Shown piece after piece: positions 2,359-15,505 of a DNA stretch of 64,000 nucleotides. Position 1 is the first letter of the stretch; each line of letters begins with the position of its first letter. This DNA comes from Gemmatimonadota bacterium (GTDB lineage: Bacteria; Latescibacterota; UBA2968; GCA-2709665): assembly GCA_028877215.1 (NCBI GenBank), contig JAPPFJ010000004.1, positions 90,514 through 154,513 of the forward strand, in the 5' to 3' direction. Both the position numbers and the translations under genes were made by a program. The notes beneath the pieces are model-generated. The model was not told the origin of the DNA, did no database searches, and saw only the letters and a list, made by a program, of their open reading frames with translations.

Positions 2359-2916
2359 ATGTCAGCCGCGATCGGCATGATCGAAGTCGAAGGCGTCGCC
2401 GGGATTATCCTCGCGTCGGACGCCGCCTGTAAAGCCGCCGGCGTGGACCTCCTGGGCTGGGAGTCCATCGGCGGATTCACCACCGTTTTTCTCGGTGGAT
2501 CCATCAGCAGGGTTGAAACGGCGCTCAAGAGCGGCGAACAAGCGGCCAGAGAGGTGGCGGACCGCGTGGTGGCGGCGCCGATGACGCACCCCGAACCCGC
2601 CTGCCGGGAATACGTTTCGAATGCAATCGCTGCGGAGCGGCGGACTCCGTCCGGCGCCCTGGGTCTGATCGAAACAAGAGGTTACGGCGCTCACGTCACC
2701 GCCAACGACAGAATGGTGAAGGCGGCCGACGTCCAGGTTTATAACGTGCTTACCGTACACAACCGGGTGGTCTGCTCCCTTATTCTTGGCGACGTGGCTT
2801 CCGTGGCCGAGGCCCTTCCCGTGGGCCGCGCGGCCGTCGAGACCGGAGAAAATTTCCTCGGCGCCGCCCTCATCCCCAAACCCTTGCCCGACGTGCTGCG
2901 GGCATTCGGCTCCTGA
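2359..2916 (+). CDS. Tandem-domain microcompartment shell protein (BMC-T)
   Basis: 185 residues with two BMC domains, about residues 4-77 (AIGMIEVEG, then a DAACKAAGVDL helix) and 99-173 (GALGLIETRG, then RMVKAADVQV), each ending in the strand that precedes a Pro-rich tail (PMTHPEP, IPKPLPD). Length and order fit BMC-T proteins, which form trimers that mimic a hexamer and tile the facets of protein-shelled organelles. The pore-loop region of domain 1 (ESIGGF) carries no obvious Cys ligand for an iron-sulfur cluster of the PduT kind. The ATG at 2359 places the BMC fold right at the N terminus. It is the first gene of an operon; the next shell gene follows after 8 bases. Family call is firm; the compartment type is unknown. 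Confidence 0.9.
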   Translation: MSAAIGMIEVEGVAGIILASDAACKAAGVDLLGWESIGGFTTVFLGGSISRVETALKSGEQAAREVADRVVAAPMTHPEPACREYVSNAIAAERRTPSGALGLIETRGYGAHVTANDRMVKAADVQVYNVLTVHNRVVCSLILGDVASVAEALPVGRAAVETGENFLGAALIPKPLPDVLRAFGS

Positions 2917-2924
2917 GCGCCGTC

Positions 2925-4085
2925 GTGGCCGCAGGAAACCATGCCCTGGGGATTCTGGAGGCCCGAGGCATGACCGCGCTCGTCGCGGCGCTCGACGCCA
3001 TGCTGAAAACCGTGGACGTCCGGGTTCTGGGGCGTCACGGCGTGGGTTCCGGCTGGCTGACGGTTGTAATCGAAGGCGCCGTTTCGGACGTGGAGGCCGC
3101 CGTTCGAGTCGGGCGTTCCGAGGCCGGGAACCACGGTGACCTGATTACCTCGGACGTCATCGCGGGGCCTGCCCCGGGCGCCCTCGAATCCATGCCGCAC
3201 ATGGATGGCGCGCGCACGGCAAAACCGGTTGGCGCGCAGGCGATGGGCATCCTCGAAACGCGTGGCATGGTACCCCTCATCCGTGGCGCCGACGCCATGA
3301 TCAAGAGCGCGCCCGTCCACGTCGCCGGCTGGACGTCCGTCGGCGGTGCGCTGGTTCATCTTGTGGTCCGGGGCGATATTTCATCGGTCCAGACCGCCCT
3401 GCAGGCCGGTAGCGCGTGTGCGGATGAGGTCGGGGAAGTCTACGCGACCCTTGCGATTCCGAGCCCTGAGCCGGGCATCGCGCCGCTGCTCCCCGATACG
3501 CCGAAATTGAACGCTCCGCAGGCAGACGTCGGCGCGCTGGGTATGCTTGAAACAACGGGCTACGTGAGCGCGGTCGGCGGGTCCGACGCGATGGTCAAGG
3601 CGGCCGACGTCGACCTCGTGCGCCTCGTCATCGCCAGCGGAGGCCGGGTGGACGCGCTGGTGAAGGGCGAACTCGACGCCGTCCAGGCGGCCGTGGAAGC
3701 CGGTATCGATGGCGCGCAGGCGGCCGGGGAACTGAATGCATCCTGTGTCGTTTCCCGCCCGTCTTCCGAAATCATGGCCTGCTTCGGCGGGAACACCGTC
3801 AGGAATACCTCGGGCTTGCATCAGGCGATGGGACTGATCGAAACGCGCAGCACCGTGGCCCTGGTCAAAGCCGTGGATCAGATGTTGAAGTCCGCGGACG
3901 TGGAATACGAGGGTCGGTACAAAGTGGGGTACTTTCTCACGGCAAGCGTCGTCCGGGGAGACGTCGGCGCGGTGCGCGCCGCCCTGAAAGTCGGCGCCGG
4001 GGAAGCGGAGAGGTACGGCGAACTGGTGTCCGCACACCTTATTCCCCATCCCTACCCGGCACTGGAAGCACGGCTGATCCACTGA
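2925..4085 (+). CDS. Four-domain microcompartment shell protein (tetra-BMC)
   Basis: 386 residues, GTG start. Four consecutive BMC domains can be read: about 7-80 (ALGILEARG), 105-180 (AMGILETRG), 203-278 (ALGMLETTG) and 300-375 (AMGLIETRS), each with the [DQ].M[LIV]K[ST]...V helix and the VV.G.....V..A pattern. The linker after domain 2 (residues 180-200) looks like a BMC-T tail, so the gene resembles two BMC-T genes fused head to tail. Shell proteins usually have one or two BMC domains, so four is unusual. With the upstream two-domain gene the pair supplies six domains, one hexagonal tile. The 8-base gap and different frame make translational coupling likely; no strong ribosome site is visible. 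Confidence 0.88.
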   Translation: MAAGNHALGILEARGMTALVAALDAMLKTVDVRVLGRHGVGSGWLTVVIEGAVSDVEAAVRVGRSEAGNHGDLITSDVIAGPAPGALESMPHMDGARTAKPVGAQAMGILETRGMVPLIRGADAMIKSAPVHVAGWTSVGGALVHLVVRGDISSVQTALQAGSACADEVGEVYATLAIPSPEPGIAPLLPDTPKLNAPQADVGALGMLETTGYVSAVGGSDAMVKAADVDLVRLVIASGGRVDALVKGELDAVQAAVEAGIDGAQAAGELNASCVVSRPSSEIMACFGGNTVRNTSGLHQAMGLIETRSTVALVKAVDQMLKSADVEYEGRYKVGYFLTASVVRGDVGAVRAALKVGAGEAERYGELVSAHLIPHPYPALEARLIH

Positions 4086-4115: not shown

Positions 4116-5285
4116 ATGATCCGTATTGACGATGCGGTGGTTACCGAACAATTACTCAAGGACAGACTGGGCGCCGGGCGGGAAGTCGAAATCTGCCCGC
4201 GGGCAAAGCTGACGCCGCTGGCGCTGGACTACCTGGCGGCCAACCAGGTCCAGGTATCCAGAAGAGAAGCGGCGGCCGCCGGCCCGCGGACTTCAGCGCC
4301 GGCCGCCCGTCGGAAATCCGGCGAACGGAAGGAATTCAAGGGCATCTTCTGCCCCAATATCGTCATTTTCGACAGCAACGACCGGATCAACTACGCGGAA
4401 ATGGAGCGGTACGTCAACTGGCTCATCGAAGCCGGCATCCACGGGTTGTATCCCAATGGCAGCACCGGCGAATTCGTGCGACTTTCCAGCGACGAGCGCA
4501 AGGAGCTCGTGCGCCTTGTCACGAACGTCAACCGGGGGCGAGTGCCCGTTCTTGCAGGCGCGAGCGAAGCCAATCTCCGCGACGTGCTCAGAATGAGTGA
4601 ATACTACGCGGGCATTGACGTCGACGCCATCTCTCTCGTACCCCCGTACTATTACGAGATCTCGGACACGAGCCTCTTCGAGTACTTCGCTGAAATCGCC
4701 AGACAGACGCCTCTCGACGTCCTGTTGTACAATATCCCCCAGTTCACCCAGGAACTCACACTGGACATCATGGAACAGCTGCTGCCCTTCGAGCGAATCA
4801 TGGGTACCAAAGATTCCAGCCGGGATATGCCGCGGCTGATCAACACCATGCATCGGCTGCGGGCGCAGCGCCCCGACTACGTGGTCCTGGTCGGCTGCGA
4901 GGAAATCCTTTGCCCTTCCATCATGATGGGCGCCAGCGGCGGCACGATTGCGACCTCCGGCATCGTTCCCGAGGTCATCGTGGATATCTATGAAAAGACG
5001 CTTGCGGGGGATATCGAGGACGCACGCAACATGCAGTACCGAATCCTGGACCTCATCAACCTCATGCTGCTGGGTGTGAACTTCCCCGAGGGCTTCAAGA
5101 CCGGCGTGGCCGTCCGCGGCTTCGACGTCGGCCCGCCGCGGCAGACCATGAGCGACGAGGAAAGGGAATATCTCCTCAAGCTCGAATCCCAGATCAGCTG
5201 CATCCTGAAAGACATGGGTTACGACGTCAAGGGGGCGCGTGCCTGTCCGGTAACCCATCTGCCATCGATTGTAGACCGGACCTGA
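4116..5285 (+). CDS. DHDPS/NAL/KDG-aldolase-family lyase with EutT-like N-terminal module
   Basis: 389 residues. Residues 72-370 are a DapA-family (beta/alpha)8 barrel that makes a Schiff base with pyruvate-type substrates: GSTGEF at 115-120, the YNIP tyrosine at 205 and the Schiff-base lysine at 232 (GTKDSS) are all present. The family covers dihydrodipicolinate synthase, N-acetylneuraminate lyase, KDG aldolase and 5-dehydro-4-deoxyglucarate dehydratase; the exact substrate cannot be read. Residues 1-50 are extra. They include CPRAKLTPLALDYL, close to the N terminus of EutT (adenosyltransferase of the ethanolamine microcompartment; RLTPSARELL as I recall it), followed by an Ala/Arg-rich linker (51-71). 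The gene lies 30 bases after two shell genes. I infer that this is encapsulated cargo. Fold and catalytic residues are firm; encapsulation is a hypothesis. Confidence 0.85.
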   Translation: MIRIDDAVVTEQLLKDRLGAGREVEICPRAKLTPLALDYLAANQVQVSRREAAAAGPRTSAPAARRKSGERKEFKGIFCPNIVIFDSNDRINYAEMERYVNWLIEAGIHGLYPNGSTGEFVRLSSDERKELVRLVTNVNRGRVPVLAGASEANLRDVLRMSEYYAGIDVDAISLVPPYYYEISDTSLFEYFAEIARQTPLDVLLYNIPQFTQELTLDIMEQLLPFERIMGTKDSSRDMPRLINTMHRLRAQRPDYVVLVGCEEILCPSIMMGASGGTIATSGIVPEVIVDIYEKTLAGDIEDARNMQYRILDLINLMLLGVNFPEGFKTGVAVRGFDVGPPRQTMSDEEREYLLKLESQISCILKDMGYDVKGARACPVTHLPSIVDRT

Positions 5286-6321: not shown

Positions 6322-7059
6322 ATGGGACCCTTCCTGACAAAGGAGCAATTGGCCGCGTATCACATGGACGGTTTCATTCAGGTTCCGGACCTGCTGACGC
6401 CGTCTGAGATCGACGCCTTCCTGGAAGCGCAGGCGGAAGCGGTGGCTCCGGAAGTCCTTGAACTCGGCCTGCGCAGGCACACCGCGGACCCTCAGTGGCG
6501 TTACCTGGCGTCGCATCCCCGCGTCTCCGGCATCGCGTCCCAACTGCTGGACGGGCCTCCAATGATCGTCCAGACCATGTACATGGCGAAGGCGCCGCGC
6601 GGCGGCACCGGCATCGCGCTTCACCAGGACACTCATTATATCCGGAACGAACCGGGCACGCTTATGGCGTGCTGGGTTGCGCTGAGCGATACCGACAGCA
6701 GCAACGGCGGGCTCTGCGTCGCCGCCGGCAGCCATCTGGCCCCCCTTCGGAATACCCGCCCCCCGCAAGACGGCAGCGAACATGCCTCCTGGGTGAAAGA
6801 ATACGCCATGCGGGCGCCCGACGGCAGAGAGTGGACCGAAACCATGCACTCGCACGAAGTCGCCGGCGTCAGCCGCGATGAACTCACCTTCCTTACGGTT
6901 CCGCGAGGATCAGGCGTCTTCTTTACCGGCAGAACCATTCACGGCTCTTACGCGAACCGGTCCAGGGGAAGGCCCCGGCTTGCATTCGCGATCCACTATG
7001 TAAGAGAGGGCACGTGGGTATTTCGCCGCGACATCCAGGACCTCGCGCGGGTTAACTGA
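6322..7059 (+). CDS. Phytanoyl-CoA dioxygenase family oxygenase (PhyH 1)
   Basis: 245 residues. The protein has the double-stranded beta-helix iron site of Fe(II)/2-oxoglutarate oxygenases: HQDTHY supplies the His-x-Asp pair near residue 100, the distal His is in TIHGSY near 208, and RSRGRPRLAF holds the 2-oxoglutarate-anchoring Arg. The N terminus (TKEQLAAYHMDGFI) is the usual PhyH opening. Substrates of bacterial PhyH paralogues cannot be predicted from sequence. The gene sits 13 bases after the PHP gene and 112 before a dehydrogenase. Two more paralogues are at 10493 and 20333, but they are not close copies. Confidence 0.82.
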   Translation: MGPFLTKEQLAAYHMDGFIQVPDLLTPSEIDAFLEAQAEAVAPEVLELGLRRHTADPQWRYLASHPRVSGIASQLLDGPPMIVQTMYMAKAPRGGTGIALHQDTHYIRNEPGTLMACWVALSDTDSSNGGLCVAAGSHLAPLRNTRPPQDGSEHASWVKEYAMRAPDGREWTETMHSHEVAGVSRDELTFLTVPRGSGVFFTGRTIHGSYANRSRGRPRLAFAIHYVREGTWVFRRDIQDLARVN

Positions 7060-10492: not shown

Positions 10493-11254
10493 ATGCCAGC
10501 AGTCCAGAATCCGAGCGAAGCCTACGAAGCCAATGGCGTGCTGCCTCGAATCGACGTATTCTCCGAATCCGAGATCAGCGCATTCAGGGCGCAGTTCGAC
10601 GAACTCGAAGCCAGAGAGGGCAGAGACGTCTGCCAGGTGGGCCTGCAGTCCCGGCACTTCGACGAGGAATTCATCTGGCGGCTGGCCACCGACGCGCGCC
10701 TTCTGGACGTCATGGAACAGGCCATGGGTGAAGATATCCTTCTGCTGGCCACGCACTTTTTCTGCAAATACCCCGCCGGGGACGAAGAACACTTTGTGGC
10801 GTGGCACCAGGACGTCACCTACTGGGGTCTGAAGCCGCCGCTGGCGCATACGGCCTGGATCGCCATCGACGACAGCGACGTTGAAAACGGGTGCATGCGC
10901 GTCATCCCCGGCTCCCACAAGAGCGGGATCGTCACCCACGGCACGTCGGAACGGGAGGGGAATCTTTTGAGCATCAACCAGGAAATCCCGGACGAACTCG
11001 TCGACACCTGCCGTGCGATCGACCTGGAACTCAGCGCCGGCCAGATGTCCGTCCATCACGGCCAGCTTTTCCACGCGAGCATGCCCAATACCTCGAACCG
11101 GCGGCGTTGCGGTCTTACCGTCCGCTTCATCCCGCCCGAAGCCAGACAGGTCGAATCCAACTCGATCGGCCAGGACTGGCGACCCATCCTGCTTCGCGGC
11201 GAGAACCGGTATACGCACCACCCCCTCATCTCCGCTCCATTTCCAATGCCATAG
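10493..11254 (+). CDS. Phytanoyl-CoA dioxygenase family oxygenase (PhyH 2)
   Basis: 253 residues, ATG with GAGGGG upstream. The iron site is visible as WHQDVTYW (His-x-Asp, near residue 104) and HHGQLFHAS (distal His near 188-193), with RRRCGLTVR for 2-oxoglutarate binding. Asp is retained in HxD, so it should hydroxylate rather than halogenate (halogenases such as SyrB2 have Ala or Gly there). The sequence between the motifs (DSDVENGCMRVIPGSH) is the standard PhyH pattern. It probably forms an operon with the SDR starting 11 bases after its stop. Confidence 0.84.
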   Translation: MPAVQNPSEAYEANGVLPRIDVFSESEISAFRAQFDELEAREGRDVCQVGLQSRHFDEEFIWRLATDARLLDVMEQAMGEDILLLATHFFCKYPAGDEEHFVAWHQDVTYWGLKPPLAHTAWIAIDDSDVENGCMRVIPGSHKSGIVTHGTSEREGNLLSINQEIPDELVDTCRAIDLELSAGQMSVHHGQLFHASMPNTSNRRRCGLTVRFIPPEARQVESNSIGQDWRPILLRGENRYTHHPLISAPFPMP

Positions 11255-12251: not shown

Positions 12252-13376
12252 ATGAAGATCACCCGCCTTGAGACCATCCCCGTTGCACAGCGGTTCCTCG
12301 TGCTGAAAATGCACACCGACGAGGGCGTCGTCGGCTATGGCGAACCCCTGGACTATACGCACTGGCGAATCGTCGCGCGCGCCATTGACGATCTGGCCGA
12401 ATACCTCATCGGCAAGGATCCGCTCCAGATCGAAGACCACTGGCAGACCTTTTTTCGCTCCACGTACAGCCGCAGCATGCCAATCATCGTTGGTGCGCTC
12501 AGCGGCGTGGATATGGCGATGTGGGACATCATGGGCAAAGTCCTGGACGTTCCCGTCTGGAAGCTTCTCGGGGGCTCGGTTCGGAACCGGGTCCGTGTCT
12601 ACGCCCACGCCGGAGGGGACACGCCGGAATCCTGTGCGGAAGCGGCGTGCAAGCGGGTCGCAGACGGGTTCACGGCCATCAAGATGGGCGGCGCCGTCAG
12701 GCCCGTCCGTTTCGTGGATACGGCGAGAGCGGTCGACGAAATGGTCGCCAGGGTGGCCGCTGTCCGGGAAGCCGTGGGCGACGACGTCGACATCGCGGTC
12801 GACCTGCACCGGCGGCTCAGCCCGCAGATGGCCGTCATCACGGTCAAGGCGCTCGAACCCTATCATCTGCTATTCGCGGAAGAACCCTGCCATCCCGAGA
12901 ACAATGACGCCCTGGTGACCCTTTCCCGCTCGACCGCCACCCCCATCGCGACCGGCGAGCGCCACCTCACCCGCTGGAGTTTCTGGGACATCGTGGAAAA
13001 GCAGGCCTGCTCCGTTCTGCAGCCGGATATCCGGCACGTGGGAGGCATCTCGGAAATGAAGAAGATCGCCACACTGGCGGAAATCAGGGACATTGCCCTT
13101 GCGCCGCACAACGCGGCCGGTCCCATCGGCGTCGCCGCGTCCGTCCATACCATGGCCACGGTCCCCAATTTTCTCATCTGCGAGGGCGGCACCACTCGGG
13201 GCGACGGTCTTCTGACGCCGCCGCTCACGTTCAATGGCGGATTCATCGAACTTCCCACGGGGCCGGGTCTCGGATTCGAGATTGACGACGACGCCCTCGA
13301 CGCCATTCGGGACGAACGCTTTCGCTTCCGCGGCATGTGGCGCTCGGAGGAAGACGGGGCCTTCGCGGACTTTTAG
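12252..13376 (+). CDS. Enolase-superfamily sugar-acid dehydratase, galactonate dehydratase-like
   Basis: 374 residues. Compared with D-galactonate dehydratase (DgoD) the active site is recognisable: VDLHRRLS (Asp and the catalytic His of DxH), AEEPCHPEN and TGERHLTR (Glu metal ligands), QPDIRHVGGI and APHNAAGPIG (the second catalytic His). DgoD removes water from an aldonate to give a 2-keto-3-deoxy acid, the substrate type of the DHDPS-family lyase at 4116. The exact sugar stereochemistry cannot be called. It may belong to the PhyH-SDR operon (116 bases downstream) and precedes an envelope-gene cluster. Confidence 0.83.
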   Translation: MKITRLETIPVAQRFLVLKMHTDEGVVGYGEPLDYTHWRIVARAIDDLAEYLIGKDPLQIEDHWQTFFRSTYSRSMPIIVGALSGVDMAMWDIMGKVLDVPVWKLLGGSVRNRVRVYAHAGGDTPESCAEAACKRVADGFTAIKMGGAVRPVRFVDTARAVDEMVARVAAVREAVGDDVDIAVDLHRRLSPQMAVITVKALEPYHLLFAEEPCHPENNDALVTLSRSTATPIATGERHLTRWSFWDIVEKQACSVLQPDIRHVGGISEMKKIATLAEIRDIALAPHNAAGPIGVAASVHTMATVPNFLICEGGTTRGDGLLTPPLTFNGGFIELPTGPGLGFEIDDDALDAIRDERFRFRGMWRSEEDGAFADF

Positions 13377-13435
13377 CAGTTGAAGCACCGGAAAACGCCG
13401 ACCAACGGACTCCCTGCACTGAGGAGACCACCCCG

Positions 13436-14683
13436 ATGCACCGGTCTCGTACTCGCATTCTGGCCGTGTTCACACTGGCAGCCTTCCAGTGGGTTACACC
13501 AGACGTATCGGGCAGCGCGGATGACCAGACCGCCCCAATCCCCCGCGGTTCGCTATCCATTCGCCAGGAGTTCAACGCGGTCTCTGCCCGGATCGACAGT
13601 CTGATTCGCGTGATGAGCGCGGCGGATCCGACAGTCATCGACAAGAAACGCCTGCCCGGGTCAACCGACGTCCTGCGCCTTCCGAAAGGGACCTCGGTTG
13701 TGTGCATCTTCTGGGCCGATGACGAGGCCCGCGTGTGGATTAACGACTTCCTGGTCGGCGAAACCCGCCTCACACCTGTGGAGATTGAAATCCCCCATCT
13801 TTATCTGAAAGGCAGGAATCGGATCCGCGTCCGATGCTGGGACACCGACCACGTGGAAAGCGGGTTCCTGTTCGGCCTCTACCTGAAGGACGCAGGCGGC
13901 GCGCTGCGCCCCATTCTCGTCTCCGACGATTCGTGGCGCACGACAGACGGCCGGGCCCTCGAAATCACCTATGCGCATCCCGTCCCGGACATCCCCTCCG
14001 CGCGGGTCATCTGGCAAACCCGGCTCTTCGGCCAGGCGGAATTCATGAAGCGTTTCGATCGCCGGCAAATCGAACAGGCCCTGTCGAAACCGGCGCGGGC
14101 GCAAGCGCCAAAGACGCGGCGGAAACGCATGGACTACCACGGCTTTCTGCAGAATCTGATTTCCCTGCAGGAAACGCGCGCCAGAATCAAGCGCCAGCTA
14201 TTGGAAACCGCGGATCCCGTCCTTCAAACCGCTTATGCGGGCCACCGGAATCCGGAAGTCAGCTTCACCCTGGGCAAGGCAGGACCGCTCAAGGAAGAGA
14301 CGTCACTCACCTTCGCAAAGGAAGTCGAATCGTGGGCGGAGAAACTGGCCGAGGCGGAAAAACGACTCGTCTACCCGGAAAAACGCGCGCTTAAGGGTGA
14401 AGGCGCCGCAATTTCGGCCGCGAGACGGGCGGCGACCGGAACGGCAAGAGGAGACCGCAGGGACGACTACCGCCCGCCCGACGAACGGTCGGCCGGCGAA
14501 CAAACCGTTTCTCAAAGGAGCGGCAGGGAAGGCAAATCCGCGGCAGCCGAGTCCGGCGGACGCGGAGGATTCGGAGGGAGCAGCGGGCGGGGGTCCCGTG
14601 CGGGGCTGCTGTTTCCCAGCATCATCCTCGCCGCCTATATCTGGTACGTCGTTTCGAAAGGCACGGATGGATTGCGAATCTGA
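13436..14683 (+). CDS. Secreted, C-terminally anchored jelly-roll protein of unknown function
   Basis: 415 residues from the ATG that follows GAGGAG. There is a signal peptide (RILAVFTLAAFQW), then a beta-rich domain (about residues 50-180) with ADDEARVWINDFLVGE, a pattern seen in galactose-binding-like jelly-roll domains of glycoside hydrolases. An Arg/Lys/Glu-rich helical part follows (220-310), then a low-complexity Gly/Ser/Arg stretch and a C-terminal membrane helix (LLFPSIILAAYIWYVV) with a short tail. The next gene, TolQ-like, starts 24 bases on. I infer an envelope protein working with the TolQ/TolR-like pair. No enzyme motif is seen. Confidence 0.6.
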   Translation: MHRSRTRILAVFTLAAFQWVTPDVSGSADDQTAPIPRGSLSIRQEFNAVSARIDSLIRVMSAADPTVIDKKRLPGSTDVLRLPKGTSVVCIFWADDEARVWINDFLVGETRLTPVEIEIPHLYLKGRNRIRVRCWDTDHVESGFLFGLYLKDAGGALRPILVSDDSWRTTDGRALEITYAHPVPDIPSARVIWQTRLFGQAEFMKRFDRRQIEQALSKPARAQAPKTRRKRMDYHGFLQNLISLQETRARIKRQLLETADPVLQTAYAGHRNPEVSFTLGKAGPLKEETSLTFAKEVESWAEKLAEAEKRLVYPEKRALKGEGAAISAARRAATGTARGDRRDDYRPPDERSAGEQTVSQRSGREGKSAAAESGGRGGFGGSSGRGSRAGLLFPSIILAAYIWYVVSKGTDGLRI

Positions 14684-14707
14684 GCGCTATTCACGGGAGG
14701 ACGGGTC

Positions 14708-15505
14708 GTGGCGCATCTAATCTGGTATGAGATTCTGATTGTGGTTGTCTTCGCCTCCGCGTGCGCCATGGCAGGCGCGCTTACACTCATCCAGGAGATC
14801 GTCTCAATTTGCCGCGAAGAATTGCGGTACGGGCTGCCGGCGAACCACGCGAGACTCACGAGCGGCGTTTTGGGCGGGCTTGCGGGGTTCGGCGTCGCCG
14901 CATTGGGCATTTACTACTACCTTTACGTGGCCCTGCCGGAAAGCTGGATCGAATGGGTGGGCCGCTCTGCATACGCGCTCATCCTGGCCGCCTCGACCGC
15001 GCACCTTTCCGTCATTGTCCACGCATGGAGACGGATTCGCGTCGAAGAGGAGGCCCTGGGTTCCACGCCATCCGCCTCAGAGGCTCCAACCCTGCTTGCG
15101 CGCCGGCAGGCCGGCCTGAGAGACCTCAGGACCGAATCGGACTCATTCACGGATCTGAAGGCCAGAGACGACGAACTGATCACAGATCTGATCGGGGTGA
15201 TCGGCGAGCGGCTGCTGTCCGGCCATCGCGCCCTGAGCCGTATTCCCTTCTATGGCTATCTCGGCACGGTCTGCGGCATCCTGCTCATGGCGCAGGAACT
15301 CGGCCGGCTGGACGAAGCCACCGAGACGTTCAAAGTGCTCCGCGATATGGCCGACGGGTTGACGCTGGCCTTCAAGACCACGCTGATTGCCCTGCTGGCC
15401 TACCTGCCGTTGAGAAAGTGCATCGACATTCTGATTGGACGGGTCGGCGCCCTCGAACGGGCATGGCTGGCGATGAGAGATGACCCGGGGAGCGAATCAA
15501 GTTGA
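14708..15505 (+). CDS. MotA/TolQ/ExbB-like proton-channel subunit
   Basis: 265 residues, GTG start with GGGAGG a little upstream. Hydrophobic segments at about 8-30, 58-78 and 88-105, a cytoplasmic stretch, then the hallmark region GYLGTVCGILLM followed by LTLAFKTTLIALLAYLP, the last two helices that line the ion path in ExbB/TolQ/MotA. Known: pentamers of such proteins, with a dimer of ExbD/TolR partners, turn ion flow into motion. The following gene, overlapping by 4 bases, is TolR-shaped. The first half is longer than in TolQ. Neither TonB, TolA nor an OmpA domain is encoded nearby. Confidence 0.72.
   Translation: MAHLIWYEILIVVVFASACAMAGALTLIQEIVSICREELRYGLPANHARLTSGVLGGLAGFGVAALGIYYYLYVALPESWIEWVGRSAYALILAASTAHLSVIVHAWRRIRVEEEALGSTPSASEAPTLLARRQAGLRDLRTESDSFTDLKARDDELITDLIGVIGERLLSGHRALSRIPFYGYLGTVCGILLMAQELGRLDEATETFKVLRDMADGLTLAFKTTLIALLAYLPLRKCIDILIGRVGALERAWLAMRDDPGSESS

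Follow-up and report, generated by a model that had tools for sequence, protein, structure and literature searches.

Two adjacent genes in a 64,000-nucleotide stretch of a Gemmatimonadota bacterium genome (contig JAPPFJ010000004.1, positions 90,514 to 154,513; hereafter the window) encode bacterial microcompartment (BMC) shell proteins of two and four domains, termed E and D, and these two proteins probably join 1:1 as a single hexagonal pseudohexamer tile with six differing pore-facing loops. The stop codon of E and the start of D are 8 bases apart. A Pfam search found two PF00936 stretches in E (E-value 1.6e-32) and four in D (E-value 6.8e-76), four being the number that the original prediction had expected there, and the scores of 111.7 bits for E and 250.7 bits for D, against a curated cut-off of 24.5, place both among the BMC shell proteins. 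In a six-frame search of the whole window genome, all six domains are stop-free and individually above the curated cut-off. The prediction of six BMC domains in two closely spaced genes is thus upheld by the open reading frames and the PF00936 search. The start motif [AI][LM]G[ML][IL]E, which had been claimed for every domain, is present in five of the six (ALGLIE at residue 100 of E; ALGILE, AMGILE, ALGMLE and AMGLIE at residues 7, 106, 204 and 301 of D), but the first domain of E reads AIG (AIGMIE at residue 4). The D domains are non-permuted, each aligning in order to positions 1-75 of the PF00936 profile, and in an AlphaFold model their order of strands (E) and helices (H) is E-H-E-E-H-E.

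The four-domain layout was found in 132/132 D sequences, the window protein included, with lengths of 366-424 aa; fewer than four domains, which would have spoken against the prediction, were seen in none of them. These sequences comprise the best 120 of 258 relatives (E <= 0.001, the window protein among them) from a search that admitted only proteins 0.55-1.75 times the query length, and 12 more among the best 120 of 171 matches to the E-D read-through product of a related locus (L012). Among the matches listed, the source assemblies belong to Latescibacterota and Gemmatimonadetes/Gemmatimonadota, and the source names include "BMC domain-containing protein", "CcmO", "CcmL/EutN" and "hypothetical protein".

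It is also evident that E and D are inherited as a pair. By scanning genome contigs with two peptide patterns, we obtained 26 loci; contig ends truncate two of them (L031 and L034), and a third (L030) has a split D. E lies directly upstream of D in 23/23 fetched loci holding an intact four-domain frame, as would be expected if the adjacency seen in the window were general, and the candidate start of D in these loci falls within a span from 14 nt upstream to 12 nt downstream of the stop of E. In L012 and L013, E and D even lie in one frame, parted only by a stop codon and three or four codons. We surveyed 64 genomes of the phylum, counting that of the window, with a D profile built from 24 of the 120 listed rows and an E profile built from 18 of 24 sequences. 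A full-length D occurs in 24 of these genomes; G063 has it split 3+1, and in G062 and G044 contig ends leave only part of it. E was found in 26/64 genomes, namely the 24 with full-length D, G062 and G063, at 277-333 bits, the next best match of any kind scoring 129.5. Every genome with E (26/26) has D, and 37/64 have neither gene; the lone D without a visible E, in G044, is a fragment at a contig start. The pair is present in 5/6 genomes of family f1, in 22/25 of family f4 (partial and split copies counted) and in 0/33 of the remainder. A Fisher test on the resulting counts (26/0/0/37, G044 left out) gives 3e-18, a naive value that ignores the kinship of the genomes.

Each of the six domain positions is phylogenetically distinct. 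In a FastTree, midpoint-rooted tree of the BMC domains of the fetched loci, D1, D2, D3, D4, E1 and E2 (25 domains each) form one clade apiece with support of 0.84-1.0, and the four domains of the split copy are placed in their positions. E2 is sister to D3 (0.95), and D4 clusters with T1 (0.91) and with the majority of the H domains from single-domain proteins (0.85); the H domains form no one clade, and several other deep branches are weak (0.33-0.72). The loops of E and D are taken as pore-lining because they align with KIGSG, the loop that lines the pore in known BMC-H proteins (PMC5853843). These loops differ from position to position and are conserved at each: the consensus over the 132 D sequences is GSGW in D1, IGGAL-H in D2, SGGR in D3 and KVGY[FY]L in D4, and over 24 E sequences it is SIGG[FY]TT in E1 (24/24) and TVH[ND]RVVC in E2 (RVVC in 24/24). 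The edge lysine is retained at all six positions (131-132 of the 132 D and 24/24 E), and the arginine of the PRP motif is kept in D1 (115/132) and D3 (122/132) and is not conserved at the other four positions. Both residues are read as contacts between tiles on the basis of published work (PMC8217296; PduA paper PMC4139245). Conserved edges together with diversified pores form the pattern that would be expected of a specialised tile.

Facet tiles are usually symmetric, being built from six or three identical chains, so that their pores repeat the same residues. With four domains per chain, copies of D alone could not make up one six-membered ring, so E would take the remaining two positions, and the tight E-D gene order would supply both chains 1:1. 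The tile would be seated in the facets by its conserved edges, and its centre would form an asymmetric gate, with a Tyr from D4, His-Asn/Asp-Arg from E2 and small Gly/Ser residues elsewhere. As all fetched loci have the gene of a DHDPS-family enzyme next after D, the gate would most likely serve the substrate or product of that enzyme. The enzyme is predicted to cleave an oxo acid to an aldehyde, which would then be converted to an acyl phosphate by a CoA-acylating aldehyde dehydrogenase (AldDH) and PduL, encoded in the same locus in relatives and on contig 14 in the window genome.

The structure models give a mixed picture. Consecutive domains lie side by side in the AlphaFold models, as in known tiles. 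Several observations weigh against the 1:1 tile. The model of the six-domain read-through reaches a pTM of 0.73 and a pLDDT of 79.5 from an alignment with only two rows covering D, which was used because MAFFT misplaced E in mixed alignments with D rows, laying it on D2-D3. In the four-domain model, D3-D4 resemble the engineered BMC-H tandem fusion 6ner, and natural BMC-T chains fit only at a root-mean-square deviation of about 15-17 A; in the six-domain model, D3-D4 are BMC-T-like. The ranking in structure searches follows suit, with 6ner at the top for the four-domain model and BMC-T chains above 6ner for the six-domain model. D4 seems to flank D3 on opposite sides in the two models, so that the chain direction conflicts, and by our reasoning the domain pairs of the six-domain model cannot all fit one simple monotone ring. 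None of the structure-search matches listed is a chain with more than two BMC domains, where weak or missing matches prove nothing. A natural six-domain E-D fusion was not found among the best 120 of 171 matches to the L012 read-through product, which are all 366-424 aa long and span roughly two thirds of that product. Since the genomes share ancestry and many of the 26 loci probably come from the same organisms, the co-occurrence counts are not independent and the Fisher value is no independent probability. Finally, one relative (L030/G063) carries D split 3+1: E is followed by a three-domain and a one-domain frame that overlap by 38 nt, either a true split or a sequence error. The original prediction had named a divided gene in relatives as a warning sign; this is the one case, against 23 loci and 24 genomes with D intact. 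It lies at L030:3225-4428, the split falls at the D3-D4 linker, and the total with E is still six domains. The asymmetric 1:1 pseudohexamer that had been proposed is therefore given strong genomic support by co-occurrence and adjacency, six clades and six distinct loops, but left uncertain by the conflict over chain direction and the limited pTM.

E might also be a homotrimer of the ordinary BMC-T kind, with D acting separately, for example as three chains that make two stacked or neighbouring tiles of 12 domains. E does match two-domain BMC-T proteins along its whole length (PduT 3n79, profile positions 1-181), and stacked double tiles occur among BMC-T proteins (BMC-T^dp; PMC8217296). We nevertheless regard this arrangement as unlikely: separate E trimers sit poorly with the 64 genomes, in which E-grade matches never occur without D, and the six-domain model sets D2 next to D3 in the manner of a single BMC-T chain. 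The mean D2-D3 spacing is no longer than the others (96, versus 97 for D1-D2 and 98 for D3-D4), though a chain bridging two tiles might need a different link. The stacked tiles from three four-domain chains that the original prediction had offered as its second option are accordingly disfavoured.

A slightly poorer candidate for the missing places is a pair of single-domain BMC-H proteins, or the two-domain T protein of the main-type relatives, either of which would complete D to a mixed tile. CcmK hetero-hexamers have been reported (PMC6788708), D4 groups with H as described above, 20 loci have H and T genes upstream, and the window genome has two single-domain genes. However, the gene that tracks D across genomes is E; no T was found in the window genome, and the window clade (L009-L012) retains E-D but shows neither T nor H in the fetched stretch. 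It is more doubtful still that the multi-domain chains are scaffold or docking proteins for the DHDPS-family enzyme inside the compartment instead of facet tiles. The constant adjacency of its gene to D (26/26 loci) and an N-terminal domain that it has in common with a separate 149-aa gene would agree with such a role, whereas conservation of the edge lysine in every one of the six domains, and of the PRP arginine in D1 and D3, is expected of tiles packed in a shell. That D is a recent fusion or an artefact in one lineage is hardly credible, since the separate frame of the fourth domain in L030/G063 stands against 132/132 four-domain sequences, 23 intact loci and 24 intact genomes (overlapping sets) and a clade of its own for each position. 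Chance and an assembly or sequencing fusion are accordingly rejected.

The origin of D may lie in a fusion of a T-H gene pair with one further domain, given that the D profile matches the upstream T and H genes (L019:8698-9540 and equivalents) over D2-D3-D4, in G047 for example over query positions 101-382 and across a stop. A search of plasmid records gave 46 matching records, all below 60% identity; two of them have joined pieces over 80% of the query, and the top match is a region without annotation.

In the window and in 26/26 loci, D is immediately followed by the DHDPS-family gene (in L020 a copy cut by the contig end). Among solved structures its window product is nearest to YagE, DHDPS and N-acetylneuraminate lyase, and it scores below the cut-off of every NCBIfam model that it matched. 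A profile of its N-terminal 66 residues, built from 26 sequences, shows homology to the separate gene of about 149 aa in 20/20 main-type loci, with E-values of 1.8e-8 to 3.6e-15 within that set; neither the N-terminal domain nor the 149-aa gene matched a Pfam family at a usable level. The 149-aa gene, located between H and E (L019:9545-9994), is perhaps a cargo adaptor. The order AldDH, BMC-P, PduL, T (two domains), H (one domain), 149-aa gene, E, D and DHDPS is found in 19/20 main-type loci, the exception being L027, where T and H precede AldDH. Downstream, 19/20 (all but the truncated L020) encode a DAO-family oxidoreductase, and 17/20 encode a diverged second DHDPS-like protein (L015 and L020 are cut, and none was found in L018); in L019 both follow the first DHDPS-family gene at 12908-14959. 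This second protein of L019 had no match in the window genome in a search without a positive control. A CoA-acylating-type AldDH (family checked on L019), PTAC and BMC-P lie near the shell genes in 20/26 loci and mark them as metabolosome loci. The remaining loci are four of the window clade, which lack all three in the fetched stretch, and the two cut at contig ends.

Of the main-type gene set, the window clade (L009-L012) has just E, D and the DHDPS-family gene in the fetched stretch, with no T or H there. In all four loci a 638-aa protein is encoded upstream, and PHP-like, PhyH and ADH genes are found downstream, farther off in L012; the PHP label comes from reading the sequence and has no Pfam match. 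The 638-aa protein (59-1975 in the window) also has no Pfam match and appears membrane-like by eye, and among the fetched loci it precedes E only in L009-L012. A second PhyH-like stretch at 10520-10918 shares 31% identity over 134 residues with the gene at 6322-7059. Contig C14 of the window genome (L038) bears a second shell locus, where AldDH, acetate kinase, a class II aldolase and a PduL-like match accompany three BMC-P genes and two single-domain BMC genes, so that E-D would be a satellite in this genome. The six-frame search of the window genome found no T gene.

Table 1. Genes and predicted pore loops of the E-D region, in window coordinates.
Feature	Position	Strand	Details
Gene E, two-domain BMC shell protein	2359..2916	+	185 aa, ATG start; E1 ~residues 4-71, E2 ~100-181
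Gene D, four-domain BMC shell protein	2925..4085	+	386 aa, GTG start; D1-D4 from residues 7, 106, 204, 301
DHDPS-family (PF00701) aldolase/lyase-like enzyme, predicted cargo	4116..5285	+	389 aa; N-terminal extension ~70 aa
E1 pore loop SIGGFTTVF	2464..2490	+	residues 36-44; one residue shorter than others in domain alignment
E2 pore loop TVHNRVVCS	2752..2778	+	residues 132-140; R136, V137, V138, C139 in 24/24 E
D1 pore loop GVGSGWLTV	3039..3065	+	residues 39-47; W in 131/132
D2 pore loop SVGGALVHL	3336..3362	+	residues 138-146; H in 131/132
D3 pore loop IASGGRVDA	3630..3656	+	residues 236-244; GGR in 132/132
D4 pore loop KVGYFLTAS	3921..3947	+	residues 333-341; Y336 in 127/132

Shell-protein surveys name one- and two-domain PF00936 types (PMC8217296, PMC4207490), the 2021 survey distinguishing six types (PMC8217296), and the view that a four-domain chain lies outside the standard classes agrees with this. 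In the openly licensed literature, "four BMC domains" was not found together with "bacterial microcompartment", the two papers with "four BMC-H" use it for four separate genes or proteins, and shell protein, microcompartment, dihydrodipicolinate and aldehyde dehydrogenase were not found jointly. Tandem or fused BMC wording does occur (e.g., in PMC8217296, PMC5853843 and PMC6971018), and the searched parts of a Poribacteria BMC paper (PMC3909097) and of PMC11323493 contain no four-domain protein. These searches and the relevant parts of the surveys gave no four-domain class, and an earlier mention elsewhere is possible. E and D both score under the cut-offs for CcmO and PduT; for the CcmO equivalog (NF053792, cut-off 270) E reaches 90.9 and D 235.8 bits. 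For EutM (NF012018; cut-off 133, 97 positions) and CsoS1 (NF053791; cut-off 166, 93 positions), D exceeds both cut-offs (222.9 and 195.7 bits), but through four stretches in 386 aa and not as a single-domain protein of profile length, and E falls short of both (74.7 and 69.2), so neither protein belongs to these families. BMC-H proteins have one PF00936 domain per chain, whereas E has two and D four; the two-domain BMC-T^s type would admit E alone and excludes D, and the permuted classes (BMC-T^sp, BMC-T^dp and BMC-H^p) do not apply because the D domains are not circularly permuted.

The chances are about even that an obligate two-chain pseudohexamer of two plus four domains, with six separately encoded positions and an asymmetric, substrate-tuned gate for a DHDPS-family aldolase compartment, is a further class of building block. 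If so, it would be one missing from the six types of the 2021 survey (PMC8217296). Such a natural six-position tile would also show how a shell pore becomes chemically one-sided, and would give synthetic biology a scaffold whose pore residues could be altered individually. With the BMC-T^s proteins (PduT, H. ochraceum BMC-T1 and CcmO), the pair has in common tandem non-permuted PF00936 domains and the pseudohexamer logic, and E has the same two-domain layout; in contrast, D has four domains, and E-D would be a ring-closing heterodimer and not a homotrimer. The Latescibacteria SPU-like and fucose-rhamnose loci (PMC4207490, PMC4454575) come from the same broad group of organisms and are also of the AldDH and PduL type, but the relevant parts of these papers describe no four-domain shell protein, and "dihydrodipicolinate" is absent from the main text of PMC4207490. 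The engineered tandem fusion 6ner (PDB), the top sequence match of both E and D, likewise links BMC-H-type domains; it is, however, man-made and has two domains, whereas E-D is natural and has four different domains plus two. Different BMC domains also share one hexagonal tile in the hetero-hexamers of CcmK paralogs (PMC6788708), but there single-domain chains mix, whereas in E-D the order and count of the domains would be fixed by covalent linkage.
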